Part shown: piece by piece, positions 1-7,004 of the stretch | Position numbering within the stretch: the first letter of the stretch is position 1 | How the letters are laid out: every line of letters begins with the position of its first letter | Origin: Candidatus Latescibacterota bacterium | Lineage (GTDB): Bacteria; JAAXHH01; JACQVL01 | Direction: 5' to 3' | Length of the DNA stretch: 7,036 nucleotides | Assembly: GCA_016209865.1 (NCBI GenBank) | Contig: JACQVL010000236.1 | Location: 1-7,036 of the forward strand | The notes under the pieces: model-generated | Seen by the model: the letters and a program-made list of their open reading frames with translations, nothing else | Told to the model about the DNA's origin: nothing | Databases searched by the model: none | Program-made: the position numbers and the translations under genes

Positions 1-2
1 GA

Positions 3-42
3 GCGTTGGCACGTTAGAACGTTGACACGCTCACACGTTAAG
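3..42. repeat. Degenerate 8-bp tandem repeat, left block
   Basis: Five imperfect octamers with an ACGT-like core follow one another: gcgttggc, acgttaga, acgttgac, acgctcac and acgttaag. The block lies just beyond the stop of the Rieske oxygenase gene. It faces a second octamer block at 63-97. A perfect 14-nt inverted match joins them (cacgttagaacgtt at 10-23, its complement at 71-84), so a hairpin is possible. The 5-bp pair agcac 48-52 / gtgct 66-70 could form a smaller stem. No T-run follows in the minus direction, so I do not call it a terminator. Confidence 0.8.
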
Positions 43-62
43 GGCATAGCACTTTCTGTATG

Positions 63-97
63 AACGTGCTAACGTTCTAACGTGTGAACGTGTGAAC
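63..97. repeat. 8-bp tandem repeat, right block, overlapping a gene end
   Basis: Four consecutive octamers, aacgtgct, aacgttct, aacgtgtg and aacgtgtg, are followed by a partial aac. The period is exact. On the minus strand this array encodes the last residues and the stop codon (69-71, TAG) of the Rieske oxygenase. The two blocks, 3-42 and 63-97, use the same core in opposite orientation. Confidence 0.9.
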
Positions 98-1178
98 ACA
101 GAAATTCATGAACGAGCGCGTGGAAGTGGTAGACCCCGTTCTCCCGTTTCACGGAGTAACGGCCCCGGTCGTACGAGCGGGAGTTGAGTCCGCGCTGGAC
201 ATGCTCGCAGATGAAGATATCCTCGTCCTGAATCTCGTCCCCGAACTTCACGACCTGGTCGATCTTCTGCCGAGTCTCCGGGACATCCGCGTCGAGGAAG
301 TACCACTCGAAGATCGTCAGAGTGCGATCGTGCGAGAGCGGGACGACCAGGTTGGTGGACATCTGTCCCAGGTAGATGTTGAGCATCAGGTTGGGGAAGA
401 CCCAGTAGTACTGCGCGTCCGGCGGGTCGTCCGGGCCGGGCTGGTAGCGCCGCTCCCCGCCATACCCTCTCGACTCCGCGCCGCGGATGGGGGAATGCTG
501 GAGCGAGGAGTACCGGAACGTCTCCACCCGGTAGGCGTCGTAGTCGATCTCCCGGTAGAGGCCGGGATGGACGACCGGGATATGGTATCCCTCCAGATAA
601 TTATCGACGTACACCTTCCAGTTGCAGGCGATCTCGTAGTCCTTCCGCAGCGCCCACCGCATCTCGCCGATCCGATGCCCCGCCGTGCGTTGCGGGATAT
701 CGCCGAGAAACTCAGTTAAGGACGGCGCGTCCGGGTCGAGGTTCACGAACAGGAGCGGACCCCACGACTCGACCCGCACCGGCCTGAGCGCCATCGCGCG
801 CCGGTCGACGTCCTGCACCTCCTCGAACTCGGGCGCATGCCGGAGGCTGCCGTCTAAGTTGTACGTCCATCCGTGGTAGTAGCAGACGAACGTCTGCCGG
901 TTGCCCTGCTCAAGCGCGACCGGGCCGGCGCGGTGGCGGCAGACGTTGTAGAACGCGCGGACCTGGTCATCCGCCCCGCGCGCGACGACGACCGGCTCGC
1001 CCGCCACATCGACGGTGAAGTAATCGCCGATGCGGGCGACCTGCTCCGTCCGCCCCACCAGTTGCCACGTCCGGTGGAAGACCCGTTCCCGTTCGAGCGC
1101 TAAGCAGGCCGGGTCGGTGTAGAGGGCCGATGGCAAGGTGTAAGCATGCTCGATGCGTGCGTTGAAGGAGAAGTCCAT
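69..1178 (-). CDS. Rieske [2Fe-2S] non-haem iron oxygenase, alpha subunit
   Basis: The product has 369 aa, the usual size for a Rieske ring-hydroxylating or demethylating oxygenase alpha subunit. The N-terminal Rieske domain shows C80-x-H82 and C99-x2-H102, which bind the 2Fe-2S cluster. The catalytic domain has the mononuclear iron ligands H199 and H204 (motif NYLEGYHIPVVHPGL), with D320 in the QDEDIFICEHVQRGL segment as the likely third ligand. The bridging position three residues before H199 is E196. From family knowledge, Glu here is typical of oxygenases acting on quaternary amines (choline, carnitine and glycine-betaine types), whereas many aromatic dioxygenases have Asp. The exact substrate is inferred, not shown. 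Electrons must come from a reductase, and none is encoded here. The start fits the family N-terminus (TLPSALYTDPACLALERERVF), but the Shine-Dalgarno is weak (gaaag), so coupling to the transporter gene 38 nt upstream is likely. The last nine or so residues (CSHVHTLER) come from the octamer array. Confidence 0.95.
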   Translation of the reverse strand: MDFSFNARIEHAYTLPSALYTDPACLALERERVFHRTWQLVGRTEQVARIGDYFTVDVAGEPVVVARGADDQVRAFYNVCRHRAGPVALEQGNRQTFVCYYHGWTYNLDGSLRHAPEFEEVQDVDRRAMALRPVRVESWGPLLFVNLDPDAPSLTEFLGDIPQRTAGHRIGEMRWALRKDYEIACNWKVYVDNYLEGYHIPVVHPGLYREIDYDAYRVETFRYSSLQHSPIRGAESRGYGGERRYQPGPDDPPDAQYYWVFPNLMLNIYLGQMSTNLVVPLSHDRTLTIFEWYFLDADVPETRQKIDQVVKFGDEIQDEDIFICEHVQRGLNSRSYDRGRYSVKRENGVYHFHALVHEFLCSHVHTLER

Positions 1179-1202
1179 ACGGCAGTCTTTCTATAAGAGC
1201 AG

Positions 1203-1281
1203 TGACAAGTGACGAGTTAATGACGAGCAGAAGAAGGTTCCTGATCTTCACTGACCCCTGACCCCTGATCCCTGACCCCTG
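1203..1281. repeat. 7-bp tandem repeats (TGAYNNN) at the transporter/oxygenase junction
   Basis: Two groups of heptamers share a TGAY start. The first is tgacaag (1203-1209) and tgacgag (1210-1216), then ttaa, then tgacgag (1221-1227). The second is tgacccc, tgacccc, tgatccc and tgacccc (1252-1279), ending in tg. Together with the interrupted middle they span the 3' end of the transporter gene and part of the spacer before the oxygenase start. The transporter stop codon lies in the ttaa between heptamers. Confidence 0.85.
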
Positions 1282-2581
1282 TCTTTATCAGCCACCCGTA
1301 GATCGGAATTCCCGCCACTAACAGGACACTCCCCCACCAGATCGCCTCAACGCCCGTCCCGTAAACAATCCAGAGGACGAACACCAGTCCGACTATCGTG
1401 ATCGCTCTGGTGAGGCCGTGCCGCCGGACCGGGAACGACTCCGGCTCTCGTTCAGCGAGCCTCAGCTCCGCGACGACGGTGGTGAGGTGCGGAAGCAGGG
1501 TGAGCAGGACGGAGAGGAGGATGATGAAATCGAACGCCTCGATGAGCGACCGGGACAGCCGGAGCATCAGGAAGACACCCGTCACCGCCGTTGAGACGAG
1601 CAGGCTCACGTGGGGGGTGCGGAACCGCGCGTGAATCCGAGCCAGAGGAGCTGGGAAGAGTCCGTCCCCGGCTGCGCTGATGGGAATCCGGCCGGTCAGC
1701 AGAATCCAGCCGTTGAGCACCCCCCGTCCCGCTAAGAGGGCGCTGGCGGCCATGAGCGTCTCTCCCCACGGCCCGAACACCTGCGCGGCTGCGCGAGCCA
1801 GCGGACTGACCGAGGCGGCGATGTCGTCGTTCGGCAGGACTCCGATCACCGCCAGGCTGACGAGCATGTACACCCCGGTGGCGATCCCGAACCCCCACAG
1901 CGTGCTGCGTCGGATCGTCGTCTGCGGGGCGGCCACCTCTTCCGCCGGGACGGTCGCCGATTCCACCCCGGCAAACGCCCAGACAGTCAGCGCCGCGCCC
2001 GACGAGATCGCGTTCACCCCATGCGGAGCGAAGGGGGTCAGGTGGCCTGGATTGAACCGCCAGATGGCGACGCCGCTCAGGATCAGCAGGGGGATGGTCT
2101 TTGCGACGGTCGTCATCACCTGGACAGCCGCGCCCTCGCGGACGCCCACGATGTTAATCCCCGTCAGCGCCCACAGGACGCCCTGTGCGACCAGGACCTG
2201 GAGCGCCGGGCTGTCCGCGAGTCGTTGGTTGAAAACTCCCATGTACCCGACCGTCGCGATGACGATCGCCGCGTTGCCGATGACGTTGCTCAGCCAGTAG
2301 CTATACACCACCTCGAACCCGACGAAAGACCCGAACGCGCGGCGCGCGTAGACATACGGGCCGCCGCTGCGCGGGTAGGCGGTCCCCATGTCAGCGTAGA
2401 TGATGGCCAAGAAAAGGTAGCCGGTCGCGGTCAGCAGCCAGGAGACGAGGGAGATCGGCCCGGCGGTGAGCGCCAGCGAGGCGGGCAGGGTGTAGATGCC
2501 CGTCCCGATCATGTTGCCGACGATCAGGGCGGTGGCGGAGACCGGCCCGAGACCCCGGACGAGGGTGTGTTTCGCGTCCAT
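1217..2581 (-). CDS. APC-superfamily amino acid/polyamine-type permease
   Basis: The product has 454 aa and about 12 hydrophobic segments, an inner-membrane transporter of the amino acid-polyamine-organocation superfamily. It looks closest to the basic amino acid/polyamine antiporter group (AdiC, PotE, CadB). The substrate-binding loop of TM1 is visible as GNMIGTGIY (residues 22-30). The TM6 motif WAFAGVES has W201 and E207, matching AdiC W202 and E208. NGWILLTG has W292, matching AdiC W293. The substrate is not settled by these residues. I chose ATG at 2581, not an upstream in-frame start at 2680, because conserved sequence begins there and the ATG overlaps the isomerase stop by one base (TGATG), which suggests translational coupling. 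Residues 434-454 after GWLIK are polar, are encoded largely by the heptamer array and look like an acquired tail. Confidence 0.93.
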   Translation of the reverse strand: MDAKHTLVRGLGPVSATALIVGNMIGTGIYTLPASLALTAGPISLVSWLLTATGYLFLAIIYADMGTAYPRSGGPYVYARRAFGSFVGFEVVYSYWLSNVIGNAAIVIATVGYMGVFNQRLADSPALQVLVAQGVLWALTGINIVGVREGAAVQVMTTVAKTIPLLILSGVAIWRFNPGHLTPFAPHGVNAISSGAALTVWAFAGVESATVPAEEVAAPQTTIRRSTLWGFGIATGVYMLVSLAVIGVLPNDDIAASVSPLARAAAQVFGPWGETLMAASALLAGRGVLNGWILLTGRIPISAAGDGLFPAPLARIHARFRTPHVSLLVSTAVTGVFLMLRLSRSLIEAFDFIILLSVLLTLLPHLTTVVAELRLAEREPESFPVRRHGLTRAITIVGLVFVLWIVYGTGVEAIWWGSVLLVAGIPIYGWLIKTGVRDQGSGVSEDQEPSSARH

Positions 2582-3525
2582 CAGGCTCCCGGCACGTTCG
2601 GGACGTACTCGTCGAGCAGCCAGCGCATGTAGTCCAGGAACCGGCGCATGTTGTACGCGTAGTCCGCGCCCCGCCCGCACTCGTGGATGGCGGCGCCGTC
2701 GTACCCGGCGGCGATGAACGCCTGCGCGTACGCATAAATAGGCTGCGTCCCCTCATCCGCATGCGCGCCCGTCCGCTGCCATTCCCCGTCCGGGCCGAGC
2801 GTCCGGGTGTACTGCTTCACGTGCCAGTGGTTGACGTACGGTGCGACCATCTTCGCCTGCGTGACCGCATCCGGGACGACCTCGCCCGGAAAGACCCACC
2901 CGTTATCCAGCGTGTCCGGGTTGACGCCGACGTTGGCCTCGTCGATCATCTTCAGCAGTCGGAGGGCGGACGGAGTGCAGTCGTGGATGGAGTCCTCGTG
3001 GATCTCTAAGGAGATGGCCGCGCCGAAACCCGCGATCCGGCGCGCGTAGTCCTTCAGCCGCGTGGCTGAGACCTCGAAGTCCCGGTCGGTCGCATCCCAC
3101 AGGCTCCGGATCATCGGCCGGCGGGGTTTCCCTTCGACCGGGGCGACGGCGAGCGGTGGGGCGACCATGATGTCGATGATCCGGAGACCGAGGATCTCGG
3201 CGACACGGGCGATGTGCAGCAGATCGGCCGATTTTTCCTCCGCCCAGGGCTGCCGGCAGATCATCCGGCGCCAGGCGAGGGTGCTGTGGAACCGCACCCC
3301 GGATTCTTCAACCACCGCCCGGGTGGTTCGCCATTCCTCGTCGGAGACCCGGAAGAACGGCCCGGTCTGTGACAAGAGGTCGGTGGAGATTTCCACCACC
3401 TGAAACCCCTGATCGTGCCAGAACCGTAACTCCCGGACGGTCTTCTGCGTATTCCACCCCGTCCCGGCGCCCGGTCCCCATCCGTATTTCTTCAGAATCC
3501 CCTCGACTTTGAACCCGAGTTGCAT
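2581..3525 (-). CDS. Sugar-phosphate isomerase/epimerase-like TIM-barrel protein
   Basis: The product has 314 aa and belongs to the AP-endonuclease-2/xylose-isomerase-like TIM-barrel family, cytosolic and metal dependent. The likely metal ligands lie in the expected order on successive strands: E174 (SLEIHED), D204 (VNPDTLDN), H235 (NHWHVKQY) and E282 (IHECGRG). Family members isomerise or epimerise sugars, inositols and related hydroxy-acids, and a few act as dehydratases or hydrolases, so the reaction is not predictable. The start is firm: the ATG at 3525 follows aaggaggt with a 5-nt spacer. It is the first gene of a tight three-gene set, its stop overlapping the transporter start. It probably processes a product or relative of the compound imported and oxygenated by the next two genes. 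This is inference from gene order. Confidence 0.9.
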   Translation of the reverse strand: MQLGFKVEGILKKYGWGPGAGTGWNTQKTVRELRFWHDQGFQVVEISTDLLSQTGPFFRVSDEEWRTTRAVVEESGVRFHSTLAWRRMICRQPWAEEKSADLLHIARVAEILGLRIIDIMVAPPLAVAPVEGKPRRPMIRSLWDATDRDFEVSATRLKDYARRIAGFGAAISLEIHEDSIHDCTPSALRLLKMIDEANVGVNPDTLDNGWVFPGEVVPDAVTQAKMVAPYVNHWHVKQYTRTLGPDGEWQRTGAHADEGTQPIYAYAQAFIAAGYDGAAIHECGRGADYAYNMRRFLDYMRWLLDEYVPNVPGA

Positions 3526-3530
3526 AAAGG

Positions 3531-3538
3531 ACCTCCTT
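3531..3538 (-). promoter_or_regulatory. Strong Shine-Dalgarno of the isomerase gene
   Basis: The minus strand reads aaggaggt, a full match to the anti-Shine-Dalgarno, five bases before the ATG. It is the strongest ribosome site in the window. It points to high independent initiation at the first gene of the isomerase-transporter-oxygenase set, while the last gene has only a weak site. Confidence 0.85.
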
Positions 3539-3573
3539 AAAAGGCAGGTTAAGAGTGAGCATTTCAGTTTTCA

Positions 3574-3597
3574 CTCAACCTCAACCTTAACCTCAAC
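3574..3597. repeat. 6-bp tandem repeat between kinase and isomerase genes
   Basis: Four hexamers follow in exact register: ctcaac, ctcaac, cttaac and ctcaac, then a partial cct. The array fills part of the 86-nt gap between the kinase stop (3612) and the isomerase start (3525). An 8-bp inverted match links it to upstream sequence in the gap (aggttaag 3546-3553, cttaacct 3586-3593). A 6-bp pair, gagtga 3553-3558 / tcactc 3571-3576, could form an alternative hairpin. I see no clear promoter in this gap. Confidence 0.85.
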
Positions 3598-3611
3598 CCT
3601 TTCCCACCGTA

Positions 3612-4331
3612 TCACACGGCTGTCTCGAACTTCGCCTGACAGGCGGCGACGATAGCCGCGGCCGCCGCGTCGAGCCCCAGGGTGTCTGTCTGCAGGGTCA
3701 TGTCGTATTCACTCGGATTATCGACCTCGCGATTAAAGACGGTCCGGGTAAAGGCCGCGCGGTCGTGATCTACCTGATGGATCTTCTTCAGCGCCTCAGC
3801 GTGCGTGATGGAATCCCGCTGCATGATCACCTGAGCCCGGCACTCCTCCGAGGCCCGAAGCCGGACGTTGAGCGCGTCGCGCAAGACGAAGTTCGCCCCA
3901 CGGCCCAGGAGAATCTTATTGCCCTGTTGTGCTAAGGCGAGCAGCACCTGAGCCAGGTACCGGCGGTACCCCATCGTTTCCAGGACATACCCCTTGAACA
4001 ATGTGTGAATCATCTCACCCATCCACGACTGGGTCTGTTCATCCAGGGCTTCGACCATCTCGGTCCTCACCTGGGCGCTGTGGGCGAGTTGTTCGATGAT
4101 TTCTTTATCCCAGACCTGCCATTGAGGGCCTAATCGTTCAGCCACTGCCTGGACGACGGTATGCCCTCCGGCGCCGAACTGGCGAGAAATCGTGATCACG
4201 GATCGTACAGTCTGTACGCGTGACGCCGTGGCAGCCGTTCGTTCTTCGTATTCCCGCTCGCGCCGCGCTTTCTCGCCCACAAACCATTCGGTCACGCGCC
4301 GGTCAGCCAGGCGAGCCTCAGCCGTGTTCAT
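3612..4331 (-). CDS. Cytidylate-kinase-like family P-loop protein
   Basis: The product has 239 aa from the chosen ATG. It resembles the cytidylate-kinase-like family (Pfam Cytidylate_kin2), whose in vivo substrate is mostly unknown. Residues 46-58, ITISRQFGAGGHT, form a degenerate phosphate-binding loop with His (H57) where classical CMP kinases have Lys, as I recall for this family. Later come GRGANFVLRD (143-152), a lid-like DHDRAAFTRTVFN (188-200) and YDMTLQTDTL (209-218). The first 45 residues are charged, helical-looking and precede the kinase fold. I start at 4331 because gaggggg lies six bases before that ATG; the in-frame TTG two codons earlier would abut it. A promoter lies about 86-114 nt upstream. 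Whether it phosphorylates a nucleotide or another small molecule is open. Confidence 0.88.
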   Translation of the reverse strand: MNTAEARLADRRVTEWFVGEKARREREYEERTAATASRVQTVRSVITISRQFGAGGHTVVQAVAERLGPQWQVWDKEIIEQLAHSAQVRTEMVEALDEQTQSWMGEMIHTLFKGYVLETMGYRRYLAQVLLALAQQGNKILLGRGANFVLRDALNVRLRASEECRAQVIMQRDSITHAEALKKIHQVDHDRAAFTRTVFNREVDNPSEYDMTLQTDTLGLDAAAAAIVAACQAKFETAV

Positions 4332-4337
4332 GATCAA

Positions 4338-4344
4338 CCCCCTC
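4338..4344 (-). promoter_or_regulatory. Shine-Dalgarno deciding the kinase start
   Basis: The minus strand reads gaggggg, six bases before the ATG at 4331. An in-frame TTG at 4337 touches this site directly and so cannot be served by it. The site decides for a 239-aa rather than a 241-aa protein. Confidence 0.75.
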
Positions 4345-4416
4345 GGAGATCAGAGTCAGATGGCGGATTGTTCGGTCAGCGATTCTAAAGACGTGGAGCT
4401 TGGCAACATGATCATC

Positions 4417-4445
4417 AACATATTCGTCTCATACACGGCTGTCAA
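4417..4445 (-). promoter_or_regulatory. Sigma70-like promoter for the kinase gene and probably the genes after it
   Basis: On the minus strand a perfect -35 box TTGACA (4445-4440) is followed after exactly 17 bases by TATGTT (4422-4417), four of six matches to the -10 consensus. It lies in the 133-nt gap between ahcY and the kinase gene and would give a leader of about 80 nt. No other promoter this good is visible between here and the end of the oxygenase gene, so it may drive all four downstream genes. Confidence 0.6.
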
Positions 4446-4464
4446 GGGACGATGAGTGCGCGTG

Positions 4465-5721
4465 TCACGTGCCCTGCTGCCATGACGTCAGGTACGTTTC
4501 CTGTTCCGGCGTCAGAGTATCGAGCCGGATGCCCATCGTGTCGAGCTTGAGCCGGGCGATGCCGTGGTCGATCTCCGGCGGGAGGGTGTGGATGCGAGGG
4601 GCGAGCGTGCCCCGGTGTCGTACGAGATACTCGGCCGCCAACGCCTGATTGGCGAACGACAGGTCCATCACCCCGGCCGGATGGCCCTCGCCGGCGACCA
4701 GGTTGACCAGACGCCCCTCTCCAAGCACGTACAGCCGCCGGCCGTCCGCCAGACAGTACTCATCCACGAATGGCCGGATGCGCCGGACGCCGACCGTCCT
4801 CGCCCGGAGGGCCTCCAGGTCGATCTCCACGTTGAAGTGGCCGGCGTTCGCTAAGATCGCCCCGTCCGGCATCGCGTCCAGGTGCGTCCCGTCGATCACC
4901 CGACGGTTCCCCGTGACCGTGATAAACAGCCGGCCGGCGGCCGCCGCATCGATCATCCGCATCACCCGGTATCCGTCCATCGCCGCCTCCAGCGCCCGGA
5001 TGGGGTTGACCTCGGTCACGGTCACGTTCGCCCCCAATCCAGCCGCGCTGGCCGCCAGTCCCCGGCCGCACCACCCGTACCCGCACACCACGACCGTCGA
5101 GCCGGCCAGGAGAACGTTCGTCGCCCGGATGATGCCGTCGAGCGCGCTCTGACCCGTCCCGTACCGGTTGTCGAACAGATGCTTCGTGTCCGATTCGTTG
5201 ACGGCGACGACCGGGAACCGGAGCACTCCGGTCCGTTCCATGCTCCGCAGCCGGATGACGCCCGTCGTCGTCTCCTCCGTCCCGCCGATGAGAGTATCGA
5301 TCAGAGCCGGGTATGCCGAATGGACGGTCGTGACGAGGTCCGCGCCGTCGTCCATCAGCAAGGCCGGCTGCCCATCGAGGACCGTCCGGAGGTGCCGGGC
5401 GTACGTCTCCTCGTCTTCCCCCTTGATGGCAAACGTCGGAATCCCGTGGCGCGCGACGAGACACGCCGCGACGTCATCCTGCGTGCTGAGCGGGTTGGAC
5501 GCGCAGACCGTCACGTCCGCGCCGCCCGCCTTGACGGTCAGGACGAGGTTGGCGGTCTTGGTCGTCACGTGCAGGCAGACGGCCACCCGAAGCCCGTTGA
5601 ACGGCTGTTCCCGCTCGAACCGCGTCCGGATCGACTGTAACACGGGCATCTGGCGCGTGTCCCATTCGAGTCGGGCCGCCCCGGTCTCGGCCAGGGACAG
5701 GTCTTTCACGTCGTAGTCCAT
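4465..5721 (-). CDS. ahcY: Adenosylhomocysteinase (S-adenosyl-L-homocysteine hydrolase)
   Basis: This cytosolic NAD-dependent enzyme reversibly splits S-adenosylhomocysteine to adenosine and homocysteine, relieving methyltransferases of product inhibition. Landmarks in the 418-aa product are HVTTKTANL (51-59), [11 protein letters not shown] (76-86), DDGADL (124-129), EETTTG (149-154), [11 protein letters not shown] with K180 and D184, DNRYGTGQS (184-192), the NAD-binding GYGWCGRG (214-221), [10 protein letters not shown] (292-301) and [13 protein letters not shown] (344-356). It is the short archaeal/thermophile-like type: it has HxxxKTA rather than HxxxETA, lacks the insertion of the long form and ends YLTSWQQGT rather than in the usual Lys/Tyr tail. 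I start at 5721 because aggag lies eight bases before that ATG. An in-frame ATG at 5757 would add 12 residues that are partly the translated ribosome site. No SAH riboswitch consensus is visible in the leader. Confidence 0.97.
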
Positions 5722-5725
5722 GACA

Positions 5726-5734
5726 CCTTCTCCT
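5726..5734 (-). promoter_or_regulatory. Shine-Dalgarno deciding the ahcY start
   Basis: The minus strand reads aggagaagg, with aggag eight bases before the ATG at 5721. The longer in-frame reading from 5757 translates this very site as part of its extension, so the short start is preferred. Confidence 0.8.
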
Positions 5735-5767
5735 GATATGGCCCCTTTATCGTCCATTTACACGCAA

Positions 5768-6134: not shown

Positions 6135-7004
6135 ATGACACGTGTCTCTTTTTCTGTCGCGGTCGCTTTGCTGATCGCAGGGTGCGTCATCGTAGGGTGT
6201 GTTCAAGACTCGGACATTCTTGCGCCAGACCTGACCGGATCACGGTCTGAGAGCCCTGCGGTGGTAGCAAAAGTGCAACCGTCAGGGACCAGGACTATTC
6301 AGTCCGCAGAAGCGCTCCAACGGACCCCGCTCTCGATCACATTGCCCGATGGTCGTGTGGTCGAACGACACGTCCACATCTTCTATGAGAAGGGCTTCAG
6401 CCACAAGCCGAATCACAACGGTGGAGGCGGCGGAACCGGGAAGTGTTATGCCTTTATGTCAGGGGGGATCAAGTGGAAAACCACCGAGCCGTATGTATTG
6501 GATACGACGAACGGGGATGGGCTTTCGGAGGAGTTTGTCGCTTCCAGCACGGAGGCCGGTCTGAACGCCTGGGACGATCAGGTGGCCTTCGACATCTTCG
6601 GATCGAGGGATATCGTGAGCATCGTTGACGGAGCAGACACGCAGTCTCCGGACGGAAAGAATGAAATCTTCTTTGGGAGCATCGAAGATCCCGGAGTCAT
6701 TGCCGTCACCATCGTATGGCGCACATTGGTCGGGAAGACGATCGTAGAGTACGATATGATCTTTGACGACCCGGACTTCACCTGGGGGGATGCAGGCCCC
6801 ACGGACGAAACAGGGTTAGGCAACACCAGCGTCATGGATTACCAGAACGTCGCCACGCATGAAATCGGCCATGCGGCCGGTCTGGCCCACCCGTCGGACT
6901 CTTGCACTGAAGAGACGATGTACCGGTTTGCCCAGGCTGGCGAGACGAAGAAGAGAACTCTGAATACAGGGGATATCGCGGGGATTAAGGCACTGTACAA
7001 GTGA
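6135..7004 (+). CDS. Secreted matrixin-like zinc metalloprotease, probable lipoprotein
   Basis: The product has 289 aa. Residues 1-22 form a signal sequence with two possible lipoboxes, IAGC (Cys17) and IVGC (Cys22), so the mature protein is probably lipid-anchored outside the inner membrane. A variable linker follows, with a glycine run at 96-100. The catalytic part starts near 104 (KCYAFMSGGIKW). The zinc motif HEIGHAAGLAH gives H242, H246 and H252 as ligands and E243 as the general base, the HExxHxxGxxH signature of metzincins. M262 in TMYRF is the likely Met-turn, and the C-terminus NTGDIAGIKALYK matches the matrixin pattern of a final helix. No cysteine-switch propeptide is seen. C104 and C257 could form a disulfide. 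The substrate is unknown; extracellular protein degradation or surface processing is likely. It is alone on this strand with its own promoter. Confidence 0.88.
   Translation: MTRVSFSVAVALLIAGCVIVGCVQDSDILAPDLTGSRSESPAVVAKVQPSGTRTIQSAEALQRTPLSITLPDGRVVERHVHIFYEKGFSHKPNHNGGGGGTGKCYAFMSGGIKWKTTEPYVLDTTNGDGLSEEFVASSTEAGLNAWDDQVAFDIFGSRDIVSIVDGADTQSPDGKNEIFFGSIEDPGVIAVTIVWRTLVGKTIVEYDMIFDDPDFTWGDAGPTDETGLGNTSVMDYQNVATHEIGHAAGLAHPSDSCTEETMYRFAQAGETKKRTLNTGDIAGIKALYK

Follow-up and report, generated by a model that had tools for sequence, protein, structure and literature searches.

A 7,036-bp contig of a Candidatus Latescibacterota bacterium (JACQVL010000236.1, G000:C181), the whole of which was analyzed here and is called the window, belongs to a 3.75-Mb metagenome-assembled genome (MAG) that is 83% complete. 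On its minus strand it carries a gene for an APC-family amino acid/polyamine/organocation transporter (1217-2581) followed by one for a Rieske non-heme iron oxygenase (69-1178). These genes form a real pair that recurs in about six bacterial lineages from several phyla, and the group Va-like oxygenase comes from an uncharacterized, widespread clade. Judging from sequence comparison, we think it rather probable that the transporter imports a betaine-type cationic amino compound and that the oxygenase then cleaves its C-N bond oxidatively or demethylates it. An earlier, sequence-only reading of this DNA had likened the genes to a three-gene catabolic module for an amine or betaine, without recognizing a described pathway in it. 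The unit is indeed not identical to a described pathway, and the amine/betaine assignment is supported by the nearest solved relatives of the oxygenase (CntA and Stc2), its Tyr/Glu marker, and the transporter linkage, whereas the third member, an isomerase, is not conserved.

Linkage of the transporter and oxygenase genes

Three genes lie in a row on the minus strand of the window, as the sequence-only reading had stated, and their coordinates and Pfam matches agree with that description. A xylose-isomerase-like TIM barrel of the sugar phosphate isomerase/epimerase type (2581-3525, 314 amino acids; AP_endonuc_2, PF01261) is followed by the AdiC-like transporter (454 amino acids; AA_permease_2, PF13520) and by the oxygenase (369 amino acids, predicted quaternary-ammonium type; PF00355 and PF00848). 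The first two overlap in a TGATG stop/start (2579-2583, minus strand), where one base is common to the stop codon TGA of the isomerase (2581-2583) and the start codon ATG of the transporter (2579-2581), and a gap of 38 bp (1179-1216, minus strand) separates the transporter stop from the oxygenase start.

Linkage was tested over 98 Rieske loci. Eleven of them, spread over about six lineages, have a same-strand APC gene at most about 550 bp downstream, and six further loci have one 1.3 to 2.6 kb downstream. At the APC density of the window's genome, 0.2 downstream APC genes would be expected versus the 11 observed; for six lineages the Poisson probability is about 4e-8, under a rough model that ignores differences in APC density between genomes. 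The part of the three-gene proposal that stands is thus this recurrent pair.

Within the same order, some genomes have the APC ortholog and others the Rieske ortholog, in both cases in one syntenic slot beside an M16 peptidase gene. In genomes of the L036 type the order is Vgb-like, MocA, M16 peptidase, and Rieske, beyond which lie a convergently oriented ABC transporter gene and one for a His-phosphatase/glycosylase. The corresponding order is Vgb-like, MocA, M16 (split), APC, and His-phosphatase in G011, and M16, APC, and His-phosphatase in G013, both of which are genomes without a Rieske gene. The slot therefore holds APC in G011 and G013 and Rieske in the g3 genomes; the window transporter is 62% identical to the former, and the window oxygenase is about 74% identical to the latter. 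An ancestral APC-Rieske neighborhood with differential loss is the simplest reading of this arrangement. In the window's own genome the best M16 matches are only 27 to 32% identical and lie on another contig.

A contig labeled Eremiobacteraeota (L122) carries a Rieske-APC pair that is nearly identical in the tree to that of Dyella monticola, and is probably a mis-binned contig or the result of a recent transfer.

The oxygenase and its relatives

The oxygenase matches the Pfam models Rieske (6.9e-20) and Ring_hydroxyl_A (3.7e-40). A pattern in its translation gives the Rieske [2Fe-2S] ligands C80-x-H82 and C99-x2-H102 (873-941, minus strand). Alignment to CntA places the pi-cation Tyr, the bridging Glu, and two iron-ligand His residues in Y194-L-E196-G-Y-H199....H204 (567-599, minus strand); D320 (219-221, minus strand), which equals CntA D323 and is invariant in 108 relatives, completes the 2-His-1-Asp set H199/H204/D320. 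The bridging Glu named in the sequence-only reading is therefore confirmed, as E196-x2-H199-x4-H204 with D320. Aligned pairs also include Y194 with CntA Y203, E196 with E205, Y216 with Y225, and N267 with N270, and a Tyr or Phe occupies the CntA-203 position in 108/108 relatives. Group Va is defined by an aromatic residue at 203, and E205 carries electrons (PMC7948474).

In a phmmer search of the PDB, CntA was matched over the full length with 182 bits, followed by Stc2 with 112 bits and then by aromatic enzymes. A structure model (pLDDT 87), for which 22 sequences derived from the loci were used, was searched with Foldseek, where CntA came first (E 5e-30, TM 0.83) and the stachydrine demethylase Stc2 second. 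Identity to the CntA/YeaW enzymes is about 29%. Stc2 and GbcA, of group Vb, share the bridging Glu and the proposed quaternary-ammonium chemistry, but have Asn at 203 where the window enzyme has Tyr, and the tree sets both the Stc2/GbcA-like and the CntA/YeaW groups apart from the oxygenase clade. Assignment as GbcA was rejected, as the NF058607 score was 177.6 bits versus a cut-off of 670.

Orthologs 73 to 75% identical are held by the same-order g3 genomes. The next-nearest relatives, at 50 to 59%, come from Gemmatimonadota, Chloroflexota, and Acidobacteriota, and a wider set at 40 to 50% reaches Planctomycetota, Bacteroidota, Ignavibacteriota, and Xanthomonadales. The clade around the oxygenase is thus large and extends over several phyla, and no function assigned to it was found. 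A separate subclade of 22 relatives (including L043, L107, L119, and L120) has the iron-site motif D-G-G-Y-H, with an Asp bridge and one inserted residue, a form that we take to be that of plant choline monooxygenase; the window enzyme has EGYH.

The transporter

The transporter matches AA_permease_2 at 3e-61 (208 bits versus a gathering score of 27), and its closest solved relative is the arginine/agmatine antiporter AdiC (208 bits), with which it shares the APC fold family. The AdiC positions W202, E208, W293, N101, and S357, which we take to be substrate-site positions, are conserved. Identity is only about 30%, and S26, C97, I205, and Y365 of AdiC are replaced by T, N, A, and H, respectively. 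Neither the basic amino acid/polyamine antiporter model TIGR00905 (282 bits versus a cut-off of 409) nor the AdiC equivalog model, whose cut-off was also not reached, could be assigned. In the APC tree, the transporter groups with an AdiC-like set that includes MTTB-linked and Xanthomonadales-linked members.

The isomerase-like gene

The AP_endonuc_2 match of the isomerase (2.3e-13) scores 50.8 bits versus a gathering score of 31.1. Its model is a TIM barrel of moderate confidence (pLDDT 70) that resembles 5tnv, the D-psicose/D-tagatose 3-epimerases, and YcjR in fold; the matches to 5tnv and the 3-epimerases are at 12 to 19% identity. The sequence-only reading had asked whether the three genes stay linked in other genomes, and on this point the isomerase fails: its relatives are absent from all 98 Rieske loci, none was found at E <= 1e-17 among 384 genomes, and the best matches within the same order are only about 30% identical. 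It was accordingly rejected as a conserved partner. Spacing makes its co-transcription with the transporter and oxygenase genes likely, yet its membership in the functional unit is doubtful, and it is probably a lineage-specific neighbor that the proposed chemistry does not require.

Neighboring genes in relatives

Neighbor genes in relatives were called by codon usage. Loci of Lysobacteraceae and Rhodanobacteraceae contain S9 and S58 peptidases, the Rieske oxygenase, a Cc2672-like dipeptidase (NF051886, 519 bits, above the cut-off), an AdiC-like APC transporter, and a flavoprotein whose nearest relatives are the histamine and trimethylamine dehydrogenases; the PDB title of Cc2672 is L-arginine carboxypeptidase. 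In Pyrinomonadaceae, the gene directly upstream of Rieske and APC is GcvT-like and scores best against the folate domain of trimethylamine N-oxide (TMAO) demethylase. In two f9-family genomes (G021 and G308), an APC relative 42 to 43% identical to that of the window is divergent from genes for MTTB and a B12-binding corrinoid protein (L172, 773-4331; L174, 1202-4825). Together, the flavoprotein, the folate demethylase domain, and the MTTB-corrinoid pair point to methylated-amine breakdown.

The arrangement of S58 peptidase, Rieske, Cc2672-like dipeptidase, AdiC-like APC, and histamine/trimethylamine-dehydrogenase-like flavoprotein genes was seen at 8770-15988 of L096 and also in L100, L117, and L124. 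This Xanthomonadales cluster looks like an undescribed amine pathway.

An aldehyde dehydrogenase gene stands immediately upstream of the Rieske gene in seven gp2 acidobacterial loci only. Its product resembles methylmalonate-semialdehyde dehydrogenase (MMSDH; 569 bits) rather than betaine aldehyde dehydrogenase (BADH; 300 bits), and in L064 (8469-11098) and other gp2 loci only 2 bp separate its gene from the Rieske gene. An MMSDH-like enzyme could suit a route in which beta-alanine betaine yields malonic semialdehyde, although the gp2 cluster looks mixed because it is flanked by glucose-6-phosphate dehydrogenase and glucokinase genes. Two neighbors in Gemmatirosa resemble egtD/egtB, one being a histidine methyltransferase and the other an FGE-sulfatase/DinB protein, but beta-lactamase-like genes lie between these and the Rieske gene, so an ergothioneine link was set aside.

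Electron supply and the remainder of the window

Only 68 bp of contig remain beyond the oxygenase stop, so the window does not show the lack of a reductase gene from which the sequence-only reading had deduced borrowed electron partners. On the longer contigs of the g3 relatives, no reductase was recognized among those genes that were scanned in the roughly 10 kb around the Rieske gene, a part of the genes present there. The MAG encodes one unlinked 434-amino-acid reductase with NAD_binding_1 and Fer2 domains (GbcB model, 115 bits versus a cut-off of 500; flavohemoprotein model, 252 versus 432), which is a candidate only for the role of electron partner.

Transcription order on the minus strand begins with an adenosylhomocysteinase gene (4465-5757) and a PF13189 cytidylate-kinase-like gene (3612-4337). 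Since both lie upstream on the same strand (3612-5757), the three downstream genes could share a longer transcript; no terminator-like site was found in positions 1-4500. On the plus strand, 6135-7004 encodes a matrixin-like protease (Peptidase_M10) with a lipoprotein-like N terminus. Past the Rieske gene, the contig end (1-68) consists of degenerate AACGTG-type repeats with a 42-nt imperfect inverted repeat (4-45/49-90), and the assembly probably broke because of these repeats. Degenerate tandem repeats of short units (AACGTG/TGTGAAC, CTGACCCCTGACCC, CTCAACCTTAAC) occur more widely, in gene gaps and at the 3' end of the transporter gene (1-97, 1251-1278, and 3574-3597); the one at 1-97 forms the inverted repeat at the contig end.

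Discussion

We propose that the functional core of the window unit is the transporter and the oxygenase. The solute of the AdiC-like transporter would be an amino compound, cationic or zwitterionic, whose quaternary nitrogen is methylated; once imported, it would be oxidized by the oxygenase. Electrons from an NAD(P)H reductase or ferredoxin encoded elsewhere would pass by way of the [2Fe-2S] cluster and Glu196 to the mononuclear iron, where O2 would hydroxylate a carbon next to the nitrogen. Either the C-N bond would break, giving trimethylamine and an aldehyde in a CntA-like manner, or a methyl group would be lost as formaldehyde.

Known systems differ from this unit in composition as well as in sequence. 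No CntB adjoins the oxygenase in the scanned relatives, and the CntA-like clusters of Burkholderia and Priestia have a semialdehyde or tartrate/D-malate dehydrogenase, neither of which is present in the window unit; transport of the CntA type is BCCT-type rather than APC. MTTB-corrinoid demethylation systems, which adjoin APC relatives in the two f9-family genomes, act by corrinoid methyl transfer, not oxygenation, and are absent from the window.

Several observations weigh against the proposed uptake and oxidation of a betaine-type compound. No substrate-specific marker was found, most of the 98 Rieske loci are without an adjoining APC gene, several unrelated APC subclades are paired with Rieske genes in the APC tree, and the neighbors in the nearest relatives (Gemmatimonadota and Chloroflexota) are mixed and uninformative. 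In the alignment, the Cys206-X-X-Cys209 pair of CntA is replaced by G197/I200, and the carnitine pocket residues F258, Y295, Y315, and F319 are replaced by A255, F290, F312, and I316, with only Y225 and N270 kept. Carnitine itself is therefore an unlikely substrate, and a carnitine monooxygenase equivalog was rejected on the pocket mismatch. The Cys pair is present in only some group V members (PMC10952381). Because the Y194/E196 markers are present but the Cys pair and pocket are changed, we name the enzyme group Va-like and withhold the carnitine monooxygenase label. The closest plasmid-borne APC relatives sit within arginine deiminase clusters, so arginine or ornithine may be the transporter's actual solute. 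Finally, the oxygenase tree puts CntA/YeaW and the window enzyme together in one large part, but the only aromatic sequence has a long branch and no secure position, so that the tree alone does not settle the aromatic question.

An aromatic-ring dioxygenase is nevertheless very improbable. Generic Pfam and NCBI names and weak NCBIfam matches to HcaE and BenA would suit one, but the aromatic PDB matches span mainly the N-terminal half of the oxygenase, terephthalate and other aromatic enzymes rank after CntA and Stc2 in the fold comparison, the window encodes no beta subunit, and the Tyr/Glu marker is present. A choline monooxygenase making betaine aldehyde for osmoprotection would suit the DGGYH subclade within the clade, and group Va includes the choline enzymes (PMC7948474). 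We still regard it as quite unlikely: the window enzyme has EGYH and not DGGYH, the aldehyde dehydrogenase of the gp2 loci is neither widespread nor BADH-like, and the transporter is not of the BCCT type. That AdiC is the closest solved relative, and that the plasmid relatives accompany arginine deiminase, would favor an arginine/ornithine-type transporter placed beside the oxygenase by coincidence in this genome; recurrence of the adjacency in about six lineages and the shared syntenic slot within the order make such a coincidence unlikely.

It is similarly unlikely that all three genes serve one pathway, in which the oxygenase would give a keto or aldehyde product from a betaine- or amino-sugar-like substrate and the TIM barrel would isomerize it. 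Tight packing on one strand with the TGATG overlap, the lack of a terminator-like site between the genes, and a fold suited to keto-sugar chemistry are consistent with this, but the isomerase lacks any conserved linkage to the oxygenase, as described above. Returning to the betaine-type proposal, one more specific form of it can be suggested from the AdiC-like pocket, the Cc2672-related dipeptidase, the flavoprotein resembling trimethylamine dehydrogenase (TMADH) and histamine dehydrogenase, and the repeated peptidase neighbors. The clade may represent a new kind of quaternary-ammonium oxygenase whose substrate is a cationic, trimethylated amino acid, for instance protein-derived N-epsilon-trimethyllysine, which peptidases would free and the APC transporter import; the oxygenase would cleave off trimethylamine, and in Xanthomonadales the TMADH-like enzyme would demethylate it. 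We offer this as a speculative version, with the odds well against it; literature searches on trimethyllysine and Rieske oxygenases turned up no enzyme.

The substrates of only a few quaternary-ammonium Rieske oxygenases are known, those listed being carnitine, choline, benzalkonium, glycine betaine, and proline betaine (PMC7948474). The present clade spans Gemmatimonadota, Chloroflexota, Acidobacteriota, Planctomycetota, Bacteroidota, and Xanthomonadales. Its recurrent APC partner narrows the search for a substrate, and cultured relatives in Frateuria and Dyella make the proposal testable. Carnitine use has been proposed in sponge symbionts (PMC5649159). If the clade degrades a betaine-like compound, it would be a further aerobic source of methylamine in soils and perhaps also in such symbionts.

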